From assembly GCF_017875325.1 (NCBI RefSeq), contig NZ_JAGGMN010000001.1:1942140-2006139 (forward strand): DNA of 64,000 bases. Reading direction: 5' to 3'. Position numbers and translations under genes: made by a program. The notes under the pieces were generated by a model that saw only the letters and a program-made list of their open reading frames with translations, was not told where the DNA came from and ran no database searches. Of this stretch, positions 13,114 to 58,023 are shown piece after piece. The first letter of the stretch is position 1. Every line of letters begins with the position of its first letter. This DNA is from Methanofollis sp. W23. GTDB lineage: Archaea; Halobacteriota; Methanomicrobia; Methanomicrobiales; Methanofollaceae.

Positions 13114-13667
13114 GGCTCTGTAGAATTTTTCATGAGGCGAGCACCCGCCTCACGCATACGTGATGAAAATATCATCTCAGAACTGGATCGATTCTTGACC
13201 CTCATCCGTGCGTTCGAGGAGCGAATCGAAGTCGAGCATCATGCCACCCCCTGGCTATCTTCGTCCCCGGGGGGTCCGGGGGTGCAACCCCCCAGCGCGA
13301 GATGGCAGGGGAATCTCGTCGATGGGGGCGGCCGACCCATCAGAAGAATTTTCTATCCTCTGCGTATTGGCTTCAACGTGATATGGCGAGTTCAAATTCT
13401 CATACAAACCTTAAGAGAGGATCGTCAGGATCATTTTCATGGTAAACCCTTTTGATAGTTCTCTCTGGCGGGGGGACTTGGCCGCCCCCCGAACCCCCCG
13501 CCACACGATAGGTCGAGGACGGCAACATTCCCCTTATGGTCATCTATTCTGCCTTCCCAACCTTATCGTGGTCCCGGGGGTCCGGGGGCAGCGCCCCCGG
13601 CCAAAGAGGCGGGAAGGCGGGTGACACACGTCTCACCCACACAAGAGGCGAGGGGTTCTACAGAGCC
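13114..13667 (+). mobile_element. MITE-like element, 554 bp, with 8-bp target duplication
   Basis: Left end GGCTCTGTAGAA and right end TTCTACAGAGCC are perfect inverted repeats. Direct repeats GAATTTTC flank it at 13106-13113 and 13668-13675. No transposase is encoded. The left part (to about 13440) is homologous to 39626-39945. The right part is the reverse complement of the element at 63195-63428. The right target duplication overlaps the stop codon of the neighbouring peptidase gene. Confidence 0.8.
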
Positions 13668-19043: not shown

Positions 19044-22000
19044 TCACTTGCGTCGGGCTGCGACAGCAACGCCCGCAGCGGCGAAGGCCGCACACCACCA
19101 GGGCAGGGGGGTCTGTGTCGGGGTGGTGGGCGTCGGGGGAGCGGGCGTGACCGGGGGCGTGGTCACGGGTTCGGCCGGGGTCAGGGTCGGGGCGGGGGTC
19201 GAGGATTCATCGACCCCGATCGCGAAGAGCGAGAACCCCGAACTCTCGGCAACGAAGGAGTAGCGGTGGTCGTTCTCGCCAACCATGCGGGTCGGGAGGG
19301 CGTGCCATGCATCGTCGTGGTAGCGGTACAGCACCACGCTCTCGGGCCCGGCGCCCTGTGCTTCGAGCCACGCCTTCGTGACCGTGAAGTCGAGGTCGGC
19401 GCCGGCAAGGGCATCGTCGGTGGTGTGGTAGAGCGTCACTTCGTCGTATTCGTAGACCGACTCGGCCGGGGCCTCGATGCGGTTCGGCTTCGCGGTCGGT
19501 TCGATGGTGACCAGGAGGTCGGAGACCGCCTCTGAGGTCGTCACTTCCACCTCGCGGATGGCAGAATCGCGGACCTCGAAGGAGGCGTGCCCGCCGGCGG
19601 GGAGATGGCTGACTGTGCCGGCCGACGCAGGCGAGCGACCGCCGCTGGACGGGGGCGCCGTGAGGGTGACCGTCCTGCTGGTGGTGCTCGTCTCATAGGC
19701 GTTCTCGGCGGTCAGGGTGACATTGTAGGTCCCGAACTTTTCATAGGTGTGGACAGGGTGCTCTTCGGTCGAGGTGGCGCCGTCACCGAACGCCCAGTGC
19801 CAGGCGGTCACGTGCCCGCTCGAAGTGTCGGTGAAGGCGACCGTCCTGAGGTCGCCGCCGACGCCGTTTTTGCTCTTGAAATCCGCAACCGGCGGCGAGA
19901 ACACCGTCACCGTCGACGTCGTCGTGTCAAAGCCGTAGACATTGCTCGCGTTCAGTTCAACCGTGTAGGTGCCGGGCGTGACGTACTCGTGCGAGGGATT
20001 CTGTGCAGTCGAGACGTTGCCGTCACCGAAGTTCCATGCCCACGAGGTCACGTCACCGGTCGAGGCATCGGTGAACGCCACCGTCAGCGGGGCATTGCCC
20101 TCGGCCGCACTCTGCGTGAAGTTCGCCTTCGGCGCCGGGAGGATCGTCACCGTCGACGTCGTCGTCTCGAACCCGTAGGCATTGCTCGCGTTCAACTCGA
20201 TGGTGTAGGTGCCGGGCGTGACGTACTCGTGCGAGGGGTTCTCTTCAGTCGAGACACTCCCGTCGCCGAAGTTCCATGCCCATGCAGACACGTCACCGGT
20301 CGAGGCGTCGGTGAACGCCACGTTCAGCGGGGCATTGCCTTCGGCCGTGCTCTGCGTGAAGTCTGCAGACGGCGAGGTGAGCACTGTCACCGTCGAGGTC
20401 GTCGTCTCGAACCCGTAGGCGTTGCTCGCGTTCAGTTCAACCGTGTAGGTGCCGGGCGTGACATACTCGTGCGAGGGATTCTCTTCAGTCGAGACACCGC
20501 CGTCGCCGAAGTCCCATGCCCATGCAGACACGTCACCGGTCGAGGCGTCGGTGAAGGTAACGGTCAGCGGGGCGTTCCCTTCTTCAGCACTCTGCGTGAA
20601 GTTTGCCTCTGGGGCGGCGTGCACCACAACCTCCTGTGTTGTGATATCGAACCCGTAGACATTGCTCGCGTTCAACTCAACCGTGTAAGTGCCGGACGTC
20701 TCGAAGGTGTGAGCGGCAGCCGACCCGGTCATCACCATCTCCCCGGTATCGTCGCCGAAGTCGACGAGACGCCGGGTAATATCGCCGGTCGAAGTATCGG
20801 TGAGGAGCACACTCAGCGGAGTATTGCCCTCTGAGACGTTCAGGTCGAAACCTGCCGCCGGCGGGGTAAGCACCGTCACCGTCGAAGTCATCGTCTCGAA
20901 CCCGTAGACATTGCTCGCGTTCAGTTCAACCGTGTAGGTGCCGGGCGTCACGTACTCGTGCGAGGGATTCTCTTCAGTCGAGACACCGCCGTCGCCGAAG
21001 TCCCACTGCCACGAGGTCACGTCACCGGTCGAGGCATCGGTGAACGCCACCGTCAGCGGGGCATTGCCCTCGGCCGCACTCTGCGTGAAGTTCGCCTTCG
21101 GCGCCGGGAGGATCGTCACCGTCGACGTCGTCGTCTCGAACCCGTAGGCATTGCTCGCGTTCAGTTCAACCGTGTAGGTGCCGGGCGTGACATACTCGTG
21201 CGAGGGGTTCTGTGCGGTCGAGACACTCCCGTCGCCGAAGTTCCATGCCCATGCAGACACGTCACCGGTCGAGGCGTCGGTGAACGCCACGTTCAGCGGG
21301 GCATTGCCTTCGGCCGTGCTCTGCGTGAAGTCTGCAGACGGCGGGGTGAGCACTGTCACCGTCGAGGTCGTCGTCTCGAACCCGTAGGCGTTGCTCGCGT
21401 TCAGTTCAACCGTGTAGGTGCCGGGCGTGACATACTCGTGCGAGGGATTCTCTTCAGTCGAGACGTTGCCGTCGCCGAAGTCCCATGCCCATGCAGACAC
21501 GTCACCGGTCGAGGCGTCGGTGAACGCAACCGTCAGCGGGGCATTGCCCTCGGCCGCACTCTGCGTGAAGTTTGCCTTCGGCGCCGGGAGCACCACGATC
21601 TCCAGCGTCGCCTCGTCGAAGGCGTAGGGGTTGCTGGCGTTGAGGGTGACCGTGTAGGTGCCGGGGTGCTCGAAGGTGTGCGAGAGCGCCGCATCAGCGG
21701 AGGTCGTGCCGTCGTCGGCGAACGTCCAGAGACGCTCGAAGACGCACCCGGTCGAGTCGTCGGTGAACGCCACCGTCAGCGGGGCGTTGCCCTCGATGAG
21801 GTCGGCGGAGATGACGGCCGCCGGCAGGTCGAGGGCGGTGACTGTCTTCGTTGTCGTGTCGCTCCCGAACTCGTTCGTGACCGTCAGGCTCACCTGGTGG
21901 GTGCCGTTGGTCGTGAAGGTGTGGGCGGGGGCGGCCTGGTCGGAGGTGGCGTCCCCGAAGTCCCAGGAATAGGTGCGGGGGTTGACCCCCGAAGAGGCGT

Positions 22001-39945: not shown

Positions 39946-40740
39946 CCTCATTCTTGGGGTGAGCGCAACTCACCTCCCTTCCCTCATCTGCTCGCCGGGG
40001 GCGAGTGCCGCCCGCACCCCGGGGATGAAGATAGGACCGGGAAGGCACAATCAATCGTCATGAAGAGCGTAATGCCGTTCGCCACCCATCTTCGTGCAGG
40101 AAGGGGGGGGCCAGACCTCGCAGAGATGGCCATCCTGAGGGCTTCTCCAGAGCCCTTTTTTTCAGCGCTGGAGAATCTTGCACAGACCTGGTCCTTCATC
40201 TCGCTCCATGACAGGCGAGGTTGAACACCCCCTCTTCACCGCTCCCGCCTCCCTTCGTCATGGAGGGTTCCTGGGAGCGGCACCCTGTCAAAGAGCACCA
40301 TCATCGTAGAGGGACCACGGCAGGATATGCCCATTTCAGCCTCCTTTTCGGGGATATCCAGGCCAATCCGGGCATATTCTGAAGAGATTTTACGAAACTT
40401 GCAGAACAAGATATTTTCACGAAATTCTCAGCAGATCATGCCCCTCATCCTGGCCCCTGATGACCTGTATGAGTGGCAATAATATCATTCCTCCTGTACC
40501 CGAATATCGGGGCAATATGGCACCTTTAAATCCCATGGATTGTGCTCAGATTTGCAGGGACACAGGGGAGAGGATCAATCTATTTTTCCATCAAATCTCC
40601 CCCATCGGACGACCTAATCTACCCCATAATTAGCGAATAAGTCACACATATACGGTTTCAAATTGGCTCTAACAGGATTTAGACGGTTTTTAAGAGCGAA
40701 ATCTCTCAATCACAGCATAGCACAAGAAGAAACCATTCTG
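39946..40740. other. Non-coding region, mostly unique sequence
   Basis: 39946-40060 carries a partial GC-rich repeat. 40060-40400 is unique and GC-mixed. 40400-40730 is clearly AT-richer than its surroundings, with no supported open reading frame, tRNA or CRISPR-type repeat. A short hairpin ACCCGAATATCGGGG lies near 40498-40512. It may hold a small RNA or the remnant of a lost gene. Confidence 0.35.
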
Positions 40741-41352: not shown

Positions 41353-42561
41353 TCATTCATAACGGAGCGCCTCGATCGGGTCGAGGCGCGAGGCCTTCCA
41401 GGCCGGATATACCCCCGAGAGAAGGGCGGTCCCGAGGCCAAACCCCATCCCAAGGAGGACCGACCCGATCCCCTCAGGACCGAGCCCGGTCGGCGCCGTC
41501 CCATACCCCGCGAAGATCGTCTCCGCGACCGAGGCGGTGACGGCCATGCCGGTGAGAGTCGAGACCGCCCCGCCGACCAGGCTCCCGGCAACACCCAGGA
41601 CGAGCGCCTCGTACAGGAACATGCGCATCACCTCGGCGCGCCGCGCCCCGATGGAGCGCATCACCCCGATCTCATGGAAGCGTTCGGTGACCGAGATGAT
41701 CATCACGTTGAGGATCGAGACCCCCGAAACGAGGAGGGCGACCCCGCCGATCCCGAGGAGAAAGATCGAGATGGCGTCATAGGTCTGGTAGAAGAGTTCG
41801 AGTACCTCCCGCGAGTCCTGGACGTCGACCACCTCCTTTCTCCGGTTGAACTGATCGGTGATGGCCTCTTTCACCGCCGGGATATCGCCAAGGTCGGTGA
41901 CCTTCACCACCACCCGGTCGTACGCCGGTTCTGGGTGGCGCTCGGTGTACCACCCCTGGGTGACGACGACGGCGTAGTCGGGGTTGATGTCGATGGCCAT
42001 GCCCCGCTCCTCCAGCACCCCCGCGACCCTGACGTCCTCGCCGCCGAGCGTGATCCGCCCGCCTGCCCGCACCTCTGCCTCCTCTGCCAGGAGCGATCCG
42101 ACGAGGACACTTTTCCCCGAGGGAGGCGGGAGGGCGCCGTCCTCGACCGTGAGGAGGACCGGGATGTCGTCGTGGTGGAGGACGATCACCGGGACATACC
42201 CTTTTTTCCGCCCCCTCTCCAGGAGTTCGGCGGTCTGGAATAGAGGCACCGCCTGGTACGGCCCGGCGGCCCGCTCGATCCTGTCCAGGTCACGTTCGGT
42301 GAGCCCGCCGGCCAGGGCCGAGCGCGGGTCGAAGGGGTCGCCGCTCGCCGCCGCAAGGTGGGGAGTGACGACCACCGTGTCTGAGACGTCGGCGACGAGG
42401 CCTGAGAAGAGGACGATGAGGTTGTTGCCCAGGATCCCGAGGGTGGCGATGGCCGCCACCCCGATGACGATCCCGAGGGCCGCCAGGCCTGAGCGGACCC
42501 AGTGGCGTCTGAGGTTCCTGACCGCAAAGGTGAGAAAAATCCCGGCAAAGATCCCGGCCAT
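41353..42561 (-). CDS. ABC transporter permease, FtsX/MacB type (copy 1)
   Basis: About 402 residues. N-terminal membrane helix after VRNLRRHWVRSGLAALGIVIG, a large extracytoplasmic MacB_PCD-like domain, then three C-terminal helices in the FtsX domain (SGVSILNVMIISVTERFHEIGVMRSIGARRAEV) and the terminal PAWKASRLDPIEALRYE. ATG at 42561 follows AGGGTGA. It is the last gene of a four-gene operon. Such permeases form mechanotransmission exporters for lipoproteins, peptides or macrolides rather than importers; the substrate is unknown. Confidence 0.9.
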   Translation of the reverse strand: MAGIFAGIFLTFAVRNLRRHWVRSGLAALGIVIGVAAIATLGILGNNLIVLFSGLVADVSDTVVVTPHLAAASGDPFDPRSALAGGLTERDLDRIERAAGPYQAVPLFQTAELLERGRKKGYVPVIVLHHDDIPVLLTVEDGALPPPSGKSVLVGSLLAEEAEVRAGGRITLGGEDVRVAGVLEERGMAIDINPDYAVVVTQGWYTERHPEPAYDRVVVKVTDLGDIPAVKEAITDQFNRRKEVVDVQDSREVLELFYQTYDAISIFLLGIGGVALLVSGVSILNVMIISVTERFHEIGVMRSIGARRAEVMRMFLYEALVLGVAGSLVGGAVSTLTGMAVTASVAETIFAGYGTAPTGLGPEGIGSVLLGMGFGLGTALLSGVYPAWKASRLDPIEALRYE

Positions 42562-42566
42562 GCCCT

Positions 42567-43766
42567 TCACCCTTGCAACGCCTCGATCGGCGTCATCTGT
42601 GCGGCCTGCCATGCCGGATACACCCCGGCGGCGACGCTGGTCACCACCCCGAAGAGCATCGCCCCCAGGATGTAGGCAAGCGAGAGGGGATCGAAGACTG
42701 TCGCCCCCTCGGCAAAGGTCGTGCCGGCGGTGAAGACTTCGATGGCGGCGAGGCTGATCACATAGCCGCCGACAAAACTGAGGGCGCCGCCGACCAGGCT
42801 CCCGACCAGGCCGAGGACAAGCGCCTCGTACAGGAACATGCGCATCACCTCGCCCCGCAGGGCACCGATGGACCGCATCACCCCGATCTCGTGCCTTCGT
42901 TCGGTGACCGAGATGATCATGACGTTGAGGATGCTCACCGCCGCGATGACCAGGGAGACCGCCCCGATCCCGAGGAGGAACCGCCCCATCGCGTCATAGA
43001 TCTCGTTCACCTGGTCGAGGCTCTCGCGCGAGTCGGTGACGTCCACGGTCTCGTCCCGCCGGTTCATGAGGGTCTCCACCGCGGCCTTCACCCCCTCCAT
43101 CTCGTCAGGGTCGGCGACGGTGATCACCACATAGTCGTAGCCTTCCTTCTGGGGAAACTGCTCCCTGAACCGGTCGCGCTCGATGACGACCGCGTAGTCC
43201 GGGTTGATGTCGAAGGCGAACCCGCGCTCCTCCAGCACCCCTGCGACCCGCATCTCCTCGTCGCCCAGGGCGATCCGGCTGCCGGCCCTGATCCCGTACT
43301 CCTCTGCCAGGACCGACCCCACCAGGGCGGCCGGCGAACCCGGTCTGAGATGGGTGCCCTCTGAGAGGTCAAGGAGGTCGGGGATGTCCTTGGTCACAAG
43401 CCCGATCACCTGGGCATACCCGCCCTCATTGCCGACGCGAAGATCGGCGGCCTCCTCGACGACCGCGACCACCGGGTTCCCCCCGGCCGCCCGCTCGATC
43501 CGGTCGACGTCGGTCTCCGAGATGGTGGCGGCCACCATGGTCCTGGGGTCGCCGACAATCCCCTCGCCGCCGAGGGCGGTGTGCGGGGTGATCACCACGG
43601 TGTCGCCGACGTCGGCGATGAGCCCGGCGGCCAGGAGGTTGATGGAGTTGCCCATCACTCCAAGGGAGGCGATGGCAAAGACCCCGATGACGATCCCGAG
43701 AGTGGCGAGAAACGACCTGACCGTGTGGCGCCTGAGGTTCCTGGTGGCGAAGGAGAAGAAGATCAT
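42567..43766 (-). CDS. ABC transporter permease, FtsX/MacB type (copy 2)
   Basis: 399 residues with the same architecture: [20 protein letters not shown], a helix with GIVIGVFAIASLGVMG, a periplasmic-type domain containing GVLEERGFAFDINPDYAVVI, then the FtsX core AVSILNVMIISVTERRHEIGVMRSIGAL and PAWQAAQMTPIEALQG. It is clearly paralogous to the flanking permeases. It begins within the stop of the ATPase gene (ATGA overlap at 43763-43766), so translation is coupled. Confidence 0.92.
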   Translation of the reverse strand: MIFFSFATRNLRRHTVRSFLATLGIVIGVFAIASLGVMGNSINLLAAGLIADVGDTVVITPHTALGGEGIVGDPRTMVAATISETDVDRIERAAGGNPVVAVVEEAADLRVGNEGGYAQVIGLVTKDIPDLLDLSEGTHLRPGSPAALVGSVLAEEYGIRAGSRIALGDEEMRVAGVLEERGFAFDINPDYAVVIERDRFREQFPQKEGYDYVVITVADPDEMEGVKAAVETLMNRRDETVDVTDSRESLDQVNEIYDAMGRFLLGIGAVSLVIAAVSILNVMIISVTERRHEIGVMRSIGALRGEVMRMFLYEALVLGLVGSLVGGALSFVGGYVISLAAIEVFTAGTTFAEGATVFDPLSLAYILGAMLFGVVTSVAAGVYPAWQAAQMTPIEALQG

Positions 43767-44446
43767 GCGATCCTGCCGTCGACGAGATGGACCCGCCGGT
43801 GTGCGTAGGCGGCGATGTTCGTGTCATGGGTGACCATGATGATCGTCTTGCCCCGCCGGTTCATCTGGGTGAGGAGGTCCATGATCCCCTCGCCGGTGTG
43901 AGTGTCCAGGTTGCCGGTCGGTTCGTCGGCCAGGAGGATCTCGGGCTCGTTGATGAGGGCCCGCGCGATGGCCACCCGCTGCTGCTGCCCGCCCGAGAGT
44001 TCGGCAGGGCGGTGGGTGTGGAGTTCGGGCTCCAGGCCGACAGCGTCGAGGAGTTCGAGACACGCCTCGTCGCACCCGCTCCGCCGTTCCTTGAGGACGC
44101 GGGGGAACTCGACGTTCTCGATGATGTCGAGGAGGGGGATGAGGTTGAACTGCTGGAAGATGAACCCGATGTGGTCGCGGCGCAGGCGGGTGAGGTCGTC
44201 GTCTGAGAGGGTGCCGATGTCCTCTCCCTTGATGAAGAGGGTGCCCGAACTCGGGGTGTCCAGGCACCCGATGAGGTTGAGGAGGGTGGACTTGCCAGAG
44301 CCCGAGGGGCCCATCACCGCGACGAAGTCGCCGGCCCTGATCTCGAGGTCGACGTGGTCGAGGGCGACGACGTCCCCTGCCGGGAGGGGGTAGACCTTGC
44401 TGACGTCCACAAATTTGATGATCGTTTCAGGCTCATGCTCATTCAT
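43763..44446 (-). CDS. ABC transporter ATP-binding protein (LolD/MacB type)
   Basis: 227 residues. Walker [11 protein letters not shown]-loop FQQFNLIP, signature LSGGQQQR, Walker [13 protein letters not shown] and the H-loop VTHD. The PTGNLD variant is typical of the LolD/MacB/FtsE exporter group. ATG at 44446 ([20 protein letters not shown]) is chosen; the longer open frame to 44713 runs through the 3' end of permease 3. It is the only ATPase in the operon for three permeases. Confidence 0.94.
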
Positions 44447-45623
44447 GGCGCAACGCCTCGATGGGGCTGAGGTGCGAGGCCTTCCATGCGGGGTAGGCCC
44501 CTGAGAGCAGACTGGTGGCGATGCCGAAGGCCGCCCCGTACGGGATGGCGATGAGACTGCTGGGTTCGAAGAGGTATTTGGTCTCTTCGAGCATGACGGC
44601 GAGGGCGAGGTAGCCGCCGAAGAGGCTGAGGACCGCACCGATGGCGCTCCCCACAAGCCCGAGGAGGAGGGACTCGTACAGGAAAATCCTGAGCACCTCC
44701 CCCTGCCTCGCACCGATGGACCTGATCACCCCGATCTCGCGGGTCCGTTCGGTCACCGACATCATCATCACATTGAAGATGGAGACCCCCGCGACGATAA
44801 GTGATATCCCTCCGATCGCGGTGGTGAAGGTCGAGATCCGGTTGAAGGTGTCGAGGAGGGTCTCGAGGATCGCTCTGGTGTCGAGGACGTCCACCTCGTC
44901 CTCGCGCCGGTTGAGCTGGTCGTCGATGGACGCTTTGACGCTGTCGATCTCTTCGAGGTCAGGGACTTTCACGATGACGAGGTCCCACTCATCGGCATCG
45001 TAGAACTCCTGGTAAAAATCGTCTGAGACGATGACCGCACGGTCGGGGTTGATGTCGAACCCGACGCCCCGTTCTTCGAGGATGCCGGTGACCCTGAGTT
45101 TCTCTTCGTCGTCGCCGATCCGGATCCTGCTTCCAGGGATGAGGTCGTAGTCCTCGGCGAGGACGGCGCCGACCATCGCCCCCCGCTCGCCCCGCAGGGC
45201 GGTGCCGTCGGCCACTTCAAGGAGGTCGGGGAGGTCGGTGGGGCTGATCCCGTAGACCGCCGCCGCGGTCGTCTCCCCGCCGATGACGACCCGGTCGCTC
45301 CCGCTCATGATCGGGATGACCAGGTTGGACCCGGCGGCACGCCTGATCTCGTTCACCTGCCGGTCGGTGACCCCGCGGCCGCTCACGGCGATCGGCGGGC
45401 CGTCTCCCTCCTCACCCCCGCCGGTGTGGGCGGTGATAACGATGGTGTCGCCGACGTCGGTGAGGGACTCTGAGATCGAGAGGACCAGGCTGTTTCCAAG
45501 GATGCCCATCGAGGCGATCGCCGCCACCCCAATGACCACTCCGGTCACGGCAAGGAAGGAGCGGAGCCAGTGGAGCCTGATGTTGCGCCTGGCAAACTGG
45601 AAAAAGATCATCCCCCTGTCCAT
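44439..45623 (-). CDS. ABC transporter permease, FtsX/MacB type (copy 3, first in operon)
   Basis: About 394 residues. The start region MIFFQFARRNIRLHWLRSFL is homologous to copy 2. The extracytoplasmic domain contains GILEERGVGFDINPDRAVIV, followed by the FtsX core AGVSIFNVMMMSVTERTREI and [20 protein letters not shown] at 45623 is taken because AGGAA precedes it by about 6 bases; ATG at 45611 matches the start of copy 2 and is an alternative. It overlaps the ATPase gene by 8 bp. The tandem hairpin array lies upstream. Confidence 0.9.
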   Translation of the reverse strand: MDRGMIFFQFARRNIRLHWLRSFLAVTGVVIGVAAIASMGILGNSLVLSISESLTDVGDTIVITAHTGGGEEGDGPPIAVSGRGVTDRQVNEIRRAAGSNLVIPIMSGSDRVVIGGETTAAAVYGISPTDLPDLLEVADGTALRGERGAMVGAVLAEDYDLIPGSRIRIGDDEEKLRVTGILEERGVGFDINPDRAVIVSDDFYQEFYDADEWDLVIVKVPDLEEIDSVKASIDDQLNRREDEVDVLDTRAILETLLDTFNRISTFTTAIGGISLIVAGVSIFNVMMMSVTERTREIGVIRSIGARQGEVLRIFLYESLLLGLVGSAIGAVLSLFGGYLALAVMLEETKYLFEPSSLIAIPYGAAFGIATSLLSGAYPAWKASHLSPIEALRHE

Positions 45624-45790
45624 CGCTATTCCTGCCTGGGGGGCGCGGCAATAAACGTGCCGGTGAGGGGTATGAGGGGCATGCTCATCATCTCCAGGGG
45701 GTCTCCAGGGGGCACGCTCGAAGAAATTCGTCTTCCCGAGTTCGTCGACGCCCATATCCCCCTGAACCCAGAGAGGACAATCAGGAGGGG
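45624..45790. other. 5' region of the ABC exporter operon
   Basis: GC-rich sequence between the first permease gene and the hairpin array. No strong TATA box is seen on the minus strand, so the operon promoter may be weak or lie within or beyond the array. Confidence 0.3.
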
Positions 45791-45867
45791 ACCGCTGAAC
45801 GAGGGATCAGGCGAGTGAGGTGCACCATCGTGTTGGAGGGTGCCGTCCACTCCAATCGCCATGAGAA

Positions 45868-45898
45868 GGGGACCAGGGGCCGAAGGCTCCTGGTCCCC
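45868..45898 (+). ncRNA. Hairpin of array unit 1 (putative structured RNA)
   Basis: 14-bp stem, GAA loop. The left arm GGGGACCAGGGGCC pairs with GGCTCCTGGTCCCC; one pair is G-U. Whether it is transcribed is not known. Confidence 0.4.
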
Positions 45899-46066
45899 AC
45901 CGATCGTGAGAGAGGAGAAGAGAACTGAAGGGGATCATTCACCGGGGGACTCCGCCCCCGGACCCCCGGCGGAGGACGATTGGTGGAGGATCGCTGAACG
46001 AAGGGTCAGGCGAGTGAGGTGCACCGTCGTGTTGGAGGGTGCCGTCCACCCCAATCGCCATGAGAA

Positions 46067-46097
46067 GGGGACCAGGGGCCGAAGGATTCTGGTCCCC
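46067..46097 (+). ncRNA. Hairpin of array unit 2 (putative structured RNA)
   Basis: Same left arm; right arm GGATTCTGGTCCCC gives two G-U pairs and one mismatch. Confidence 0.4.
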
Positions 46098-46263
46098 CTC
46101 GATCGTGAGGGGAGAAGAGAACTGAAGGGGGTAACTCGCCGGGGGACTCCGCCCCCGGACCCCCGGCGGAGGACGATTGGTGGAGGATCGCTGAACGAGG
46201 GATCAGATGAAGAGATTGCATCGTCGTGTTGGAGGGTGCCGTCCACTCCAATCGCCATGAGAA

Positions 46264-46294
46264 GGGGACCAGGGGCCGAAGGCTCCTGGTCCCC
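46264..46294 (+). ncRNA. Hairpin of array unit 3 (putative structured RNA)
   Basis: Identical in both arms to unit 1, with a GAA loop and one G-U pair. Confidence 0.4.
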
Positions 46295-46485
46295 CTCGAT
46301 CGTGAGAGGAGAAGAGAACTGAAGGGGATCAAATTCTGGTACATCTCTCGCCCACCGGGGACTCCGCCCTCGGACCCCCGGCGGAGGACGATTGGTGGAG
46401 GATCGCTGGAAGGGTGGATCAGGCGAATGAGGAGGTTGCACCGTCGTGTTGGAGGGTGCCGTCCACCGCCAAATCGCCATGAGAA

Positions 46486-46516
46486 GGGGACCAGGGGCCG
46501 AAGGCTTCTGGTCCCC
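46486..46516 (+). ncRNA. Hairpin of array unit 4 (putative structured RNA)
   Basis: Right arm GGCTTCTGGTCCCC; all 14 pairs form, two as G-U. Confidence 0.4.
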
Positions 46517-46698
46517 CATTACGGAGAGAGACTAAGATAATCACTCAAGAATCCACTCAACGACCCCTTGGCGCTTCCACTCGCTCAAAAGAGAGACGAC
46601 ACTCAAAACCCCGGACCGCCCTCCAACGATCCCCAGGGCACGACAGAGAAGAGAGAACAAAAAATCAACGAGAAAAGACGTGAAGAGGGAGAAGCCCC

Positions 46699-47916
46699 TC
46701 AGCCAAAGATCTCCCGCGACCGCTCCAGTGCAGCGACCGCCGGGAGCTTCTTGCCGGTCAGGAACTCGATACACGCGCCCCCACCAGTGGATATATGGGT
46801 GAAGGCTGCCTCAAGCCCCATCTGCTCGACGACCGCCGCGGTATGACCCCCGCCGATCACCGAGAAGGGCACCGTCGACGAAGCCCGCAAGATCTCGAAC
46901 GTCCCAAGCGAGAAGGCCTGGTCCTCAAAGACCCCCGCGGGGCCGTTGACCACGACCGTTCCCGACGACGAGATCTCCTCGTTCACCGCCTTCAGGGCGT
47001 CGGCACCGATATCCATCACCGGCGCCTCATCCGGGATCGACCCGACGGCGTACTCGACCCGCTCGCCGTCCTCGCGGACCGCGACCTGGTCAGGGAAAAG
47101 GACCCGGTCGCCGAACCGGTCGAGAAGGGCCTTTGCCTTTGCGACCTCGCCCGTATACTTCAACTGAGCGATCAGATCGGCCGAAGGTGTCCCGATATCG
47201 TAGCCTGCCGCCGTGAGGAAGACATTGGCTACGACACCAATGACGATCACCTGGTCGGCGACCCCGTTCTCCAGGACATTCGCCGCCACCGCAATCGAGT
47301 CGTCCACCTTCGTCCCGCCCAGGACAAATGTCACCGGCCGCGGCGCCCCTGTAAAGACCCGCGAGAGATTGCTCACCTCGCGCTCCATCAGGAGCCCGCC
47401 CGCCGAGCGCATCAGCATGGGCAACCCGACCACCGTCGGCTGTGAACGATGGGCCGTCCCGAAGGCGTCATTGACGAAGATATCCCCCATCGCCGCAAGA
47501 CGACGAGCGATATGCGTCCCCTTCGCCGCCTCCGGCGAAAGCGTCAGGTTTTCCTCCGCGTTGAACCTGACATTCTCAAGCATCAGGACCTCGCCCGTCC
47601 GCAGGGACGTCACCGCCTCCCGCGCCGTCCGGCCGAAGATATCATCGACATACCGCACCGGCCGACCCAGGAGATGGGCGAGCTTCTCGGCATGCCCCTC
47701 CAGGGTGGAGAAGTCCTTCTTGCCCGGCCGACTCTGGTGCGTCAGGACGACGACCCGGCTCTCTTCGAGTGCCTTGATCGTCGAAAGATGCTCCCGGAAC
47801 CGCTTGTCATCCAGGATCTGGTTTGAAGTCGGGTCAATAGGGGAGTTGAGGTCCAGACGGAGCAGGACTGTCTTCCCCTCAGGCGCAAGGTCGCGGATCG
47901 TCCCAATCGACGACAT
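46699..47916 (-). CDS. pgk: Phosphoglycerate kinase
   Basis: The 405-residue enzyme interconverts 1,3-bisphosphoglycerate plus ADP and 3-phosphoglycerate plus ATP; in a methanogen it mainly works in gluconeogenesis. Seen: VLLRLDLNSPID, the LTHQSRPG substrate loop, MLENVRFNAEE, FVNDAFGTAHRSQPT, FVLGGTKVDDS, NGPAGVFE and the hinge/nucleotide motif GGGHTAAVVE. It starts 14 bp after the stop of ATP synthase subunit D on the same strand, so it probably shares that operon. Confidence 0.96.
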   Translation of the reverse strand: MSSIGTIRDLAPEGKTVLLRLDLNSPIDPTSNQILDDKRFREHLSTIKALEESRVVVLTHQSRPGKKDFSTLEGHAEKLAHLLGRPVRYVDDIFGRTAREAVTSLRTGEVLMLENVRFNAEENLTLSPEAAKGTHIARRLAAMGDIFVNDAFGTAHRSQPTVVGLPMLMRSAGGLLMEREVSNLSRVFTGAPRPVTFVLGGTKVDDSIAVAANVLENGVADQVIVIGVVANVFLTAAGYDIGTPSADLIAQLKYTGEVAKAKALLDRFGDRVLFPDQVAVREDGERVEYAVGSIPDEAPVMDIGADALKAVNEEISSSGTVVVNGPAGVFEDQAFSLGTFEILRASSTVPFSVIGGGHTAAVVEQMGLEAAFTHISTGGGACIEFLTGKKLPAVAALERSREIFG

Positions 47917-56978: not shown

Positions 56979-58023
56979 ATTCGAGATCATAGAGGATGCT
57001 GGATATAAGGGTTGTGGGGGGAGTGCACAGGTACAAAGATGCAGGCCTCCTCGCCAGGAGAGAGCCCCCGATCTCCTGACGAATGTACACAATCTGTGCA
57101 CGAAAAAAAGTATTTCAGCCCTGTAGAAACCCCCACCTATTCTCGGTGCACGCGCGATTCAACCGCCTCCCCCCCCATCTTTTCGCCGGGGAAGAGTGCC
57201 GCCCGCACCCCCGGAAGGAAGAGAGGGCTGGGAAGGCATATTCGAAATCCTTGAAGAGAGATTGTCGTCCACGACCTATCGCGGCGCAGGGGGTTTGGGG
57301 GGCGGCACGGATCCACACACCCCGAAGACCCACGATTTTTTTCATCACGTATGCGTGAGCCTCGGGTTCATGCATGATTCTACAGAGCCGATATATCAAA
57401 GGTTTTCTGTCACAGGGAATCTTTGATCGCCTGTATGTTCAGGCCTGCAGCCACTGGACCGGCGCGGAATGGCAGCCCTGGGGACCTGGGGAGGGGTGTG
57501 CTCTTTGATCGAGTAAATGCCGTCCCCCACTCATCTTCATGATGAAGGATCCAGGGGCCAAAGGTACCTGAAGCACGTCGTCAAGGGATCAGGGAAGAAT
57601 GCAGAGCAGATATCAAGGAAATATAATGCACACGCTTCACCGGGGATTCGCATCCCTGAACACCGAATGCCCAAGGCTTTCTCGATTCTCTTCAAAACGC
57701 GCTCATGTTCGTTTCCTCATGACGCGATAGACCGGAGATCTCCGACCGGTGGCGAGGTAAATGCATGTCGTCCCCTGTCACTCCTCATGATGAAGGGCAA
57801 AGGGTGACAGCATGCAACAGAGACCCTCACTGGATCCACCCTCATGCCACCCCCTGTCCATCGCCATCTTCGGGGATCTGGGGGCGAGTCCACTGGTGAA
57901 CAGGATGCAATCCTGCTCTTTTCGGAGCGTGAGTCATTATGATGAAGGGTCCGGAGGTTCCTCGGTCCCTGTCGCAAGGCCATCCCAGAAGAAAGAGAGA
58001 CACAGCGGGTCATGGAGGGATAC
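56979..58023. repeat. Intergenic region with family-1 related repeat (57118-57387)
   Basis: 57118-57387 runs from AGCCCTGTAGAAACCCCCAC to GATTCTACAGAGCC and carries interior blocks of family 1 (GACCTATCGCGGCGCAGGGG; CACGTATGCGTGAGCCTCGG). Flanking 8-mers match only 5 of 8. Near 57548-57570 CCAGGGGCCAAAGGTACCTG resembles the core of the tandem-array hairpin in degenerate form. Elsewhere nothing is recognised. Confidence 0.45.

Follow-up and report, generated by a model that had tools for sequence, protein, structure and literature searches.

A compound palindromic repeat of Methanofollis forms a tandem array between pgk and an ABC exporter operon

The intergenic region between pgk and a MacB/FtsX-type ABC exporter operon in Methanofollis sp. 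W23 contains a tandem array of hairpins. We conclude, with a probability of roughly 0.6, that a compound intergenic repeat, specific to Methanofollis and similar to REP and BIME elements, has been amplified locally to form this array, and that the array does not serve the ABC operon as a leader. The region lies within a window of 64,000 nucleotides, the whole stretch of DNA analysed here (contig NZ_JAGGMN010000001.1, positions 1,942,140 to 2,006,139 of the forward strand). Coordinates refer to this window unless the genome is named.

Architecture of the array

The array is found at positions 45789-46517 of the plus strand and comprises 3.6 head-to-tail units of ~197 bp (Tandem Repeats Finder; period 197, 87% matches), with spacings of 199, 197 and 222. 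It is flanked by pgk (46699-47916) and by the first permease gene of the ABC operon (predicted start codon at 45623), both on the minus strand. A covariance model of the repeat (R1, built from 17 copies) matches at 45749, 45940, 46137 and 46353. The compound unit consists of hairpin B, a closed stem of ~90 nt (P1, GGACGATTGG...CCAATCGCC) and hairpin A, which follow each other in this order in units 2-4 and in a single consistent orientation on the plus strand.

Hairpin B of the second unit (45942-45961, CCGGGGG-ACTCCG-CCCCCGG, alignment A1) is positioned 5' of P1 and has an alternative pairing with the next CCCCCGG. Its counterparts are located at 46139-46158 in the third unit and at 46355-46373 in the fourth, where one G-T pair is present and one G is deleted. 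P1 spans 45975-46059 in unit 2 (R1 match 45940-46062, 120.1 bits), 46172-46256 in unit 3 (46137-46259, 124.2 bits) and 46387-46478 in unit 4 (46353-46481, 89.5 bits). The first unit is truncated (R1 match 45749-45863, 49.0 bits); its start is decayed, hairpin B is missing or decayed, and no clear second hairpin can be recognised. The three full units are 88-92% alike and all four units cluster together in the tree of copies, which fits amplification in place or homogenisation.

Every unit carries the 31-nt hairpin A, in agreement with the four-unit tandem array described in an earlier, sequence-only reading of this DNA. In unit 1 (45868-45898), hairpin A has 14 bp, a GAA loop and one G-T pair. 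Unit 3 (46264-46294) has the same hairpin, unit 4 (46486-46516) has two G-T pairs, and unit 2 (46067-46097) has two G-T pairs and one G-A mismatch. As had been noted, the four copies share the same left arm, GGGGACCAGGGGCC-GAA-GG. It occurs exactly four times in the window (45868, 46067, 46264 and 46486), with 0.11 occurrences expected at up to three mismatches. The right arms of units 1-4 read GGCTCC, GGATTC, GGCTCC and GGCTTC, each followed by TGGTCCCC. All four hairpins fold far better than shuffled sequences as plus-strand RNA (z between -3.6 and -5.9).

The same reading had described right arms that change from C to T opposite G while every hairpin stays paired. All four copies share one fixed G-T pair, and units 2 and 4 each show one extra C to T, giving one, two, one and two G-T pairs in units 1-4, but the right arms of units 1 and 3 are identical. 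Unit 2 additionally carries a C to A change (GGATTC) that breaks a pair and had been overlooked. The C-to-T differences among the four paralogous copies represent one or two events and are no statistical evidence. A second hairpin with the same bias, assigned to "unit 3", is probably that of the last unit, which is unit 4 when the truncated first unit is counted; it contains one G-T pair (CCGGGG...CCCTCGG).

Distribution of the repeat in Methanofollis

A DNA search places the repeat at 58 sites in the genome of strain W23, with further clusters at 1.839, 1.861, 1.871, 1.907 and 2.842 Mb. The unit is not a novel RNA of a single locus but a member of a dispersed repeat family. R1, which covers hairpin B and P1, yields matches of 119-129 nt to which hairpin A is additional. 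It finds 147 matches in this genome, of which ~30 are full-length and mostly clustered, while the remainder are mostly ~100 nt long and weaker. Those of the weaker matches that were inspected represent a related family of palindromes, in which GCCTTCCC...GGGAAGGC arms surround hairpin B, and paired inverted hairpins are seen only among these ~100-nt relatives. Further ~100-nt matches in the window are located at 2477-2579 and 39993-40096 on the plus strand and at 13501-13602 and 57786-57898 on the minus strand. The window also contains seven 240-bp tandem repeats with a 480-bp higher order (19902-21594), which look like coding repeats.

R1 has matches in 10 of 11 other Methanofollis genomes, but none in 29 genomes that represent other genera of the order. 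Among the genomes searched, the repeat is restricted to the genus. All clusters examined lie in gaps between predicted genes, and their neighbours are convergent, divergent or in tandem. The cluster that flanks a Yip1-domain gene on either side (genome 1.907-1.909 Mb) has the same place and relative orientation in a second species, G004. A cis-regulatory role for one operon is unlikely in light of this variety of gene contexts and of the Yip1 cluster retained in G004.

The array at a rearranged junction

The number of units at the pgk/ABC locus varies between species. The sister species G001, with a Pgk identity of 98%, has six units beside pgk, and two units and a partial one on a contig that starts with the ABC gene. 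If these two contigs adjoin, G001 would have at least eight units at this locus. In G004 a single weak unit is found upstream of the ABC gene (L208, 8167-8280), where pgk is not adjacent, and in G005 a remnant of hairpin A is left.

The ABC operon is convergent with pgk in G002-G006. In strain W23 it is inverted (ABC 41353-45623, pgk 46699-47916), and judged by the contig ends it is apparently inverted in G001 too. The array occupies the new pgk-ABC junction, between the end of the ABC block (45670) and the start of the pgk block (46558). The flanking blocks are rearranged as well, with the order A, C-, D+, B-, E compared to A, B, C, D, E. A clean single inversion by recombination between two inverted units was considered and rejected, as one event would produce a simpler arrangement of blocks.

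Conservation of pairing and the plus-strand bias

It had been proposed that the pairing is under selection, with a covariation search as a check. In hairpin A, compensatory changes are present. Among 23 distinct copies, compared at the nine outer positions with 2000 shuffles, 169 cells are Watson-Crick paired versus 150 in the shuffles, and 16 two-sided changes are found versus 6.1 expected; 0 of 2000 shuffles reach either value. Position 4 alternates between G-C and C-G, position 5 between A-T, T-A and C-G, and position 6 between C-G and T-A. The pairing of hairpin A is conserved across the family. Template switching perfects quasi-palindromes and could likewise yield such compensatory changes. 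P1, on the other hand, does not covary: its counts are no higher than in shuffles, and pairing within copies is no better than with 3' arms taken from other copies. Shifted pairings in P1, considered as compensatory changes, are ruled out by the same counts, none of which exceeds the shuffles.

The strand preference reported for hairpin A is found mainly elsewhere in the unit, and at the level of the family it is weak to moderate. G-T pairs in hairpin A do not exceed column composition (13 versus 14.9 expected). In P1, parsimony gives 85 G-U versus 43 A-C events (p = 0.0003), or 76:43 once one fixed G-U column is removed (p = 0.003); the underlying alignment had been fitted to the model, with a possible leaning towards G-U. 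At unpaired sites the tendency is reversed (C>T 118, G>A 151). A strand-symmetric search for stems finds 38 G-U against 8 A-C, with 16 loci against 2, and for 48 of 76 copies the plus strand has the lower fold z-score (p = 0.007); copies inside one array are not independent. The G-U share in P1 is 83%, a value reached in 0 of 200 shuffles of 3' arms between copies, which already give 70%. In the pgk array itself, columns counted by eye on the alignment split 6:1 (p = 0.06). The excess of G-U over A-C in P1 is modest, and much of it derives from base composition.

These asymmetries bear on the explanation that the units give rise to plus-strand transcripts and are under selection as RNA, forming a multicopy structured RNA family throughout the genus. 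The P1 bias, the lower plus-strand fold scores, the covariation of hairpin A and the plus-strand loops (GAA, GCAA, GGAA and GGGA) all agree with it. However, P1 lacks covariation and hairpin A lacks a G-T excess. The plus strand has no TATA-like or A+T-rich, promoter-like stretch ahead of the array (39% A+T in 45640-45800), and Rfam recognises only a tRNA in the window at the gathering score, with nothing over threshold in the array. In addition, DNA hairpins share the strand preference. The four A hairpins fold with -15.3, -10.1, -15.3 and -12.8 kcal/mol as plus-strand DNA and with -13.5, -8.7, -13.5 and -11.7 kcal/mol as minus-strand DNA, so that the plus strand is the more stable in DNA as well as in RNA folds. 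Single-stranded DNA predicts the same bias as RNA and could just as well be its cause. We therefore regard an RNA family as unlikely, and give a smaller chance to its specific form, in which the plus strands of Methanofollis arrays would produce multicopy RNAs containing B, P1 and A under RNA-level selection that tolerates G-U.

Relation to known repeats and mobile elements

REP-type repeats occur across bacteria and archaea (PMC12306157). The Methanofollis repeat resembles REP, BIME and REPIN elements in being extragenic, palindromic, multicopy, mosaic and sometimes clustered, and shares with archaeal MITEs the character of a short, non-coding, dispersed repeat. It differs from REP elements in several respects: the unit is 125-200 nt long and contains three stem-loops, whereas a REP is a single palindrome of 20-40 nt, often in inverted pairs; the sequence is genus-specific; and the genome of strain W23 contains no RAYT-type Y1 transposase. 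Given that the repeat is REP/BIME-like, yet both the short unit and the Y1 transposase are missing, we place it among the intergenic palindromic repeats as a novel variant, with a putative function.

Multicopy intergenic G-quadruplex/hairpin repeats (rPQS) have been described in several Methanomicrobiaceae, including one Methanofollis with a TC(C/A) central loop (Front Microbiol 2021, PMC8044849). As published there, the pattern has four G-runs, an A between runs 3 and 4, and a 3' C3TC3. It has 0 matches in the genome of strain W23 and is therefore rejected as the identity of the array's repeat. As far as the published description goes, both repeats are multicopy and intergenic, occur in any gene orientation, and place a G-run beside a GC hairpin with alternative pairings; hairpin B in reverse (GGGGG-TCC-GGGGG...CCCCC) has a similar layout. 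However, only hairpin B corresponds, and the main text of that paper describes neither a compound unit of ~200 nt nor P1, hairpin A or arrays in tandem.

The dispersed, palindromic, oriented, multicopy and genus-specific nature of the repeat also fits a non-autonomous mobile element that would move as single-stranded DNA, either as a REPIN through a RAYT or through an IS200/IS605 transposase, with the asymmetry marking the cut strand. The strand bias of the hairpins, visible in DNA energies too, points the same way. The Y1 transposase (PF01797), however, is absent from the genome of strain W23, with positive controls. Across the genus its distribution does not follow the number of repeats: G005 and G009 have many copies without Y1_Tnp, and G002, G003 and G007 have few copies with it. 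These observations reject a REP driven by RAYT or IS200, and the cluster that keeps its place between species argues further against mobility. We consider a mobile element improbable.

A viral origin was also assessed. The P1 pattern has no match in viral contigs, and two 19-mer matches of hairpin A, one to a tRNA arm and one to an unrelated stretch without the element, were rejected as chance. In the former case (L222, 2280-2298), the 19-nt left half of hairpin A matches the anticodon-to-variable region of an apparent tRNA on a viral contig, which we judge to be coincidental.

Regulatory geometry at pgk and the ABC operon

On the minus strand, a promoter-like TTTATT box is located upstream of the first ABC permease (45650-45655), with ~27 nt to the predicted start codon. 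The box is part of the ABC block conserved with two other species, which reaches 45670 with 91% identity. We infer that TTTATT may be the promoter of a nearly leaderless ABC mRNA. The array begins further upstream than TTTATT, ~165 bp from the predicted start codon. At the other end, a T6 tract 35-40 nt past the pgk stop codon (46659-46664, minus strand) could be an archaeal terminator; it is not seen in the sister species G001 (L051).

With the pgk stop on one side and the promoter-like box of the same strand on the other, the array could act as a minus-strand terminator or insulator that stops pgk read-through into the ABC operon. This is very unlikely. The hairpins are not followed by T tracts, which also rejects hairpin A as an intrinsic terminator, and pgk ends with a T6 tract of its own, ahead of the array. 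In addition, the G004 unit lies upstream of the ABC gene though pgk is not adjacent, and elsewhere the repeat occurs between divergent genes. The attenuating leader of the ABC operon that had been proposed has only adjacency in its favour and is dismissed, since plus-strand RNA cannot be the leader of genes on the minus strand and TTTATT separates the distant array from their start codon.

Discussion

We favour the interpretation of the array as an amplified cluster of REP/BIME-like compound repeats. A single unit, already upstream of the ABC gene, would have given rise to the others on the spot through unequal recombination or slippage during replication. The palindromes would be maintained by binding or extrusion of the DNA hairpin, or by repeated repair through template switching, and the array would not act as a dedicated leader or attenuator of either pgk or the ABC operon. 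Both the function at the DNA level and the mechanism of amplification are presumptive. Several features speak against a REP-like nature: the unit is far longer than a classical REP, a mobilising enzyme was not found, and the strand asymmetry of P1 together with the GAA/GNRA loops on the plus strand hints at a single-strand function, for which a simple double-stranded palindrome has no need.

When wobble pairs show a strand bias in only a few paralogous repeats, they are weak evidence for an RNA. The broader picture is that of a methanogen genus with a large REP-like system that extends beyond the published G-rich motif; its units are compound, and their tandem amplification differs from species to species. 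Should RNA be the source of the remaining strand bias, the arrays would represent a new multicopy archaeal RNA family.
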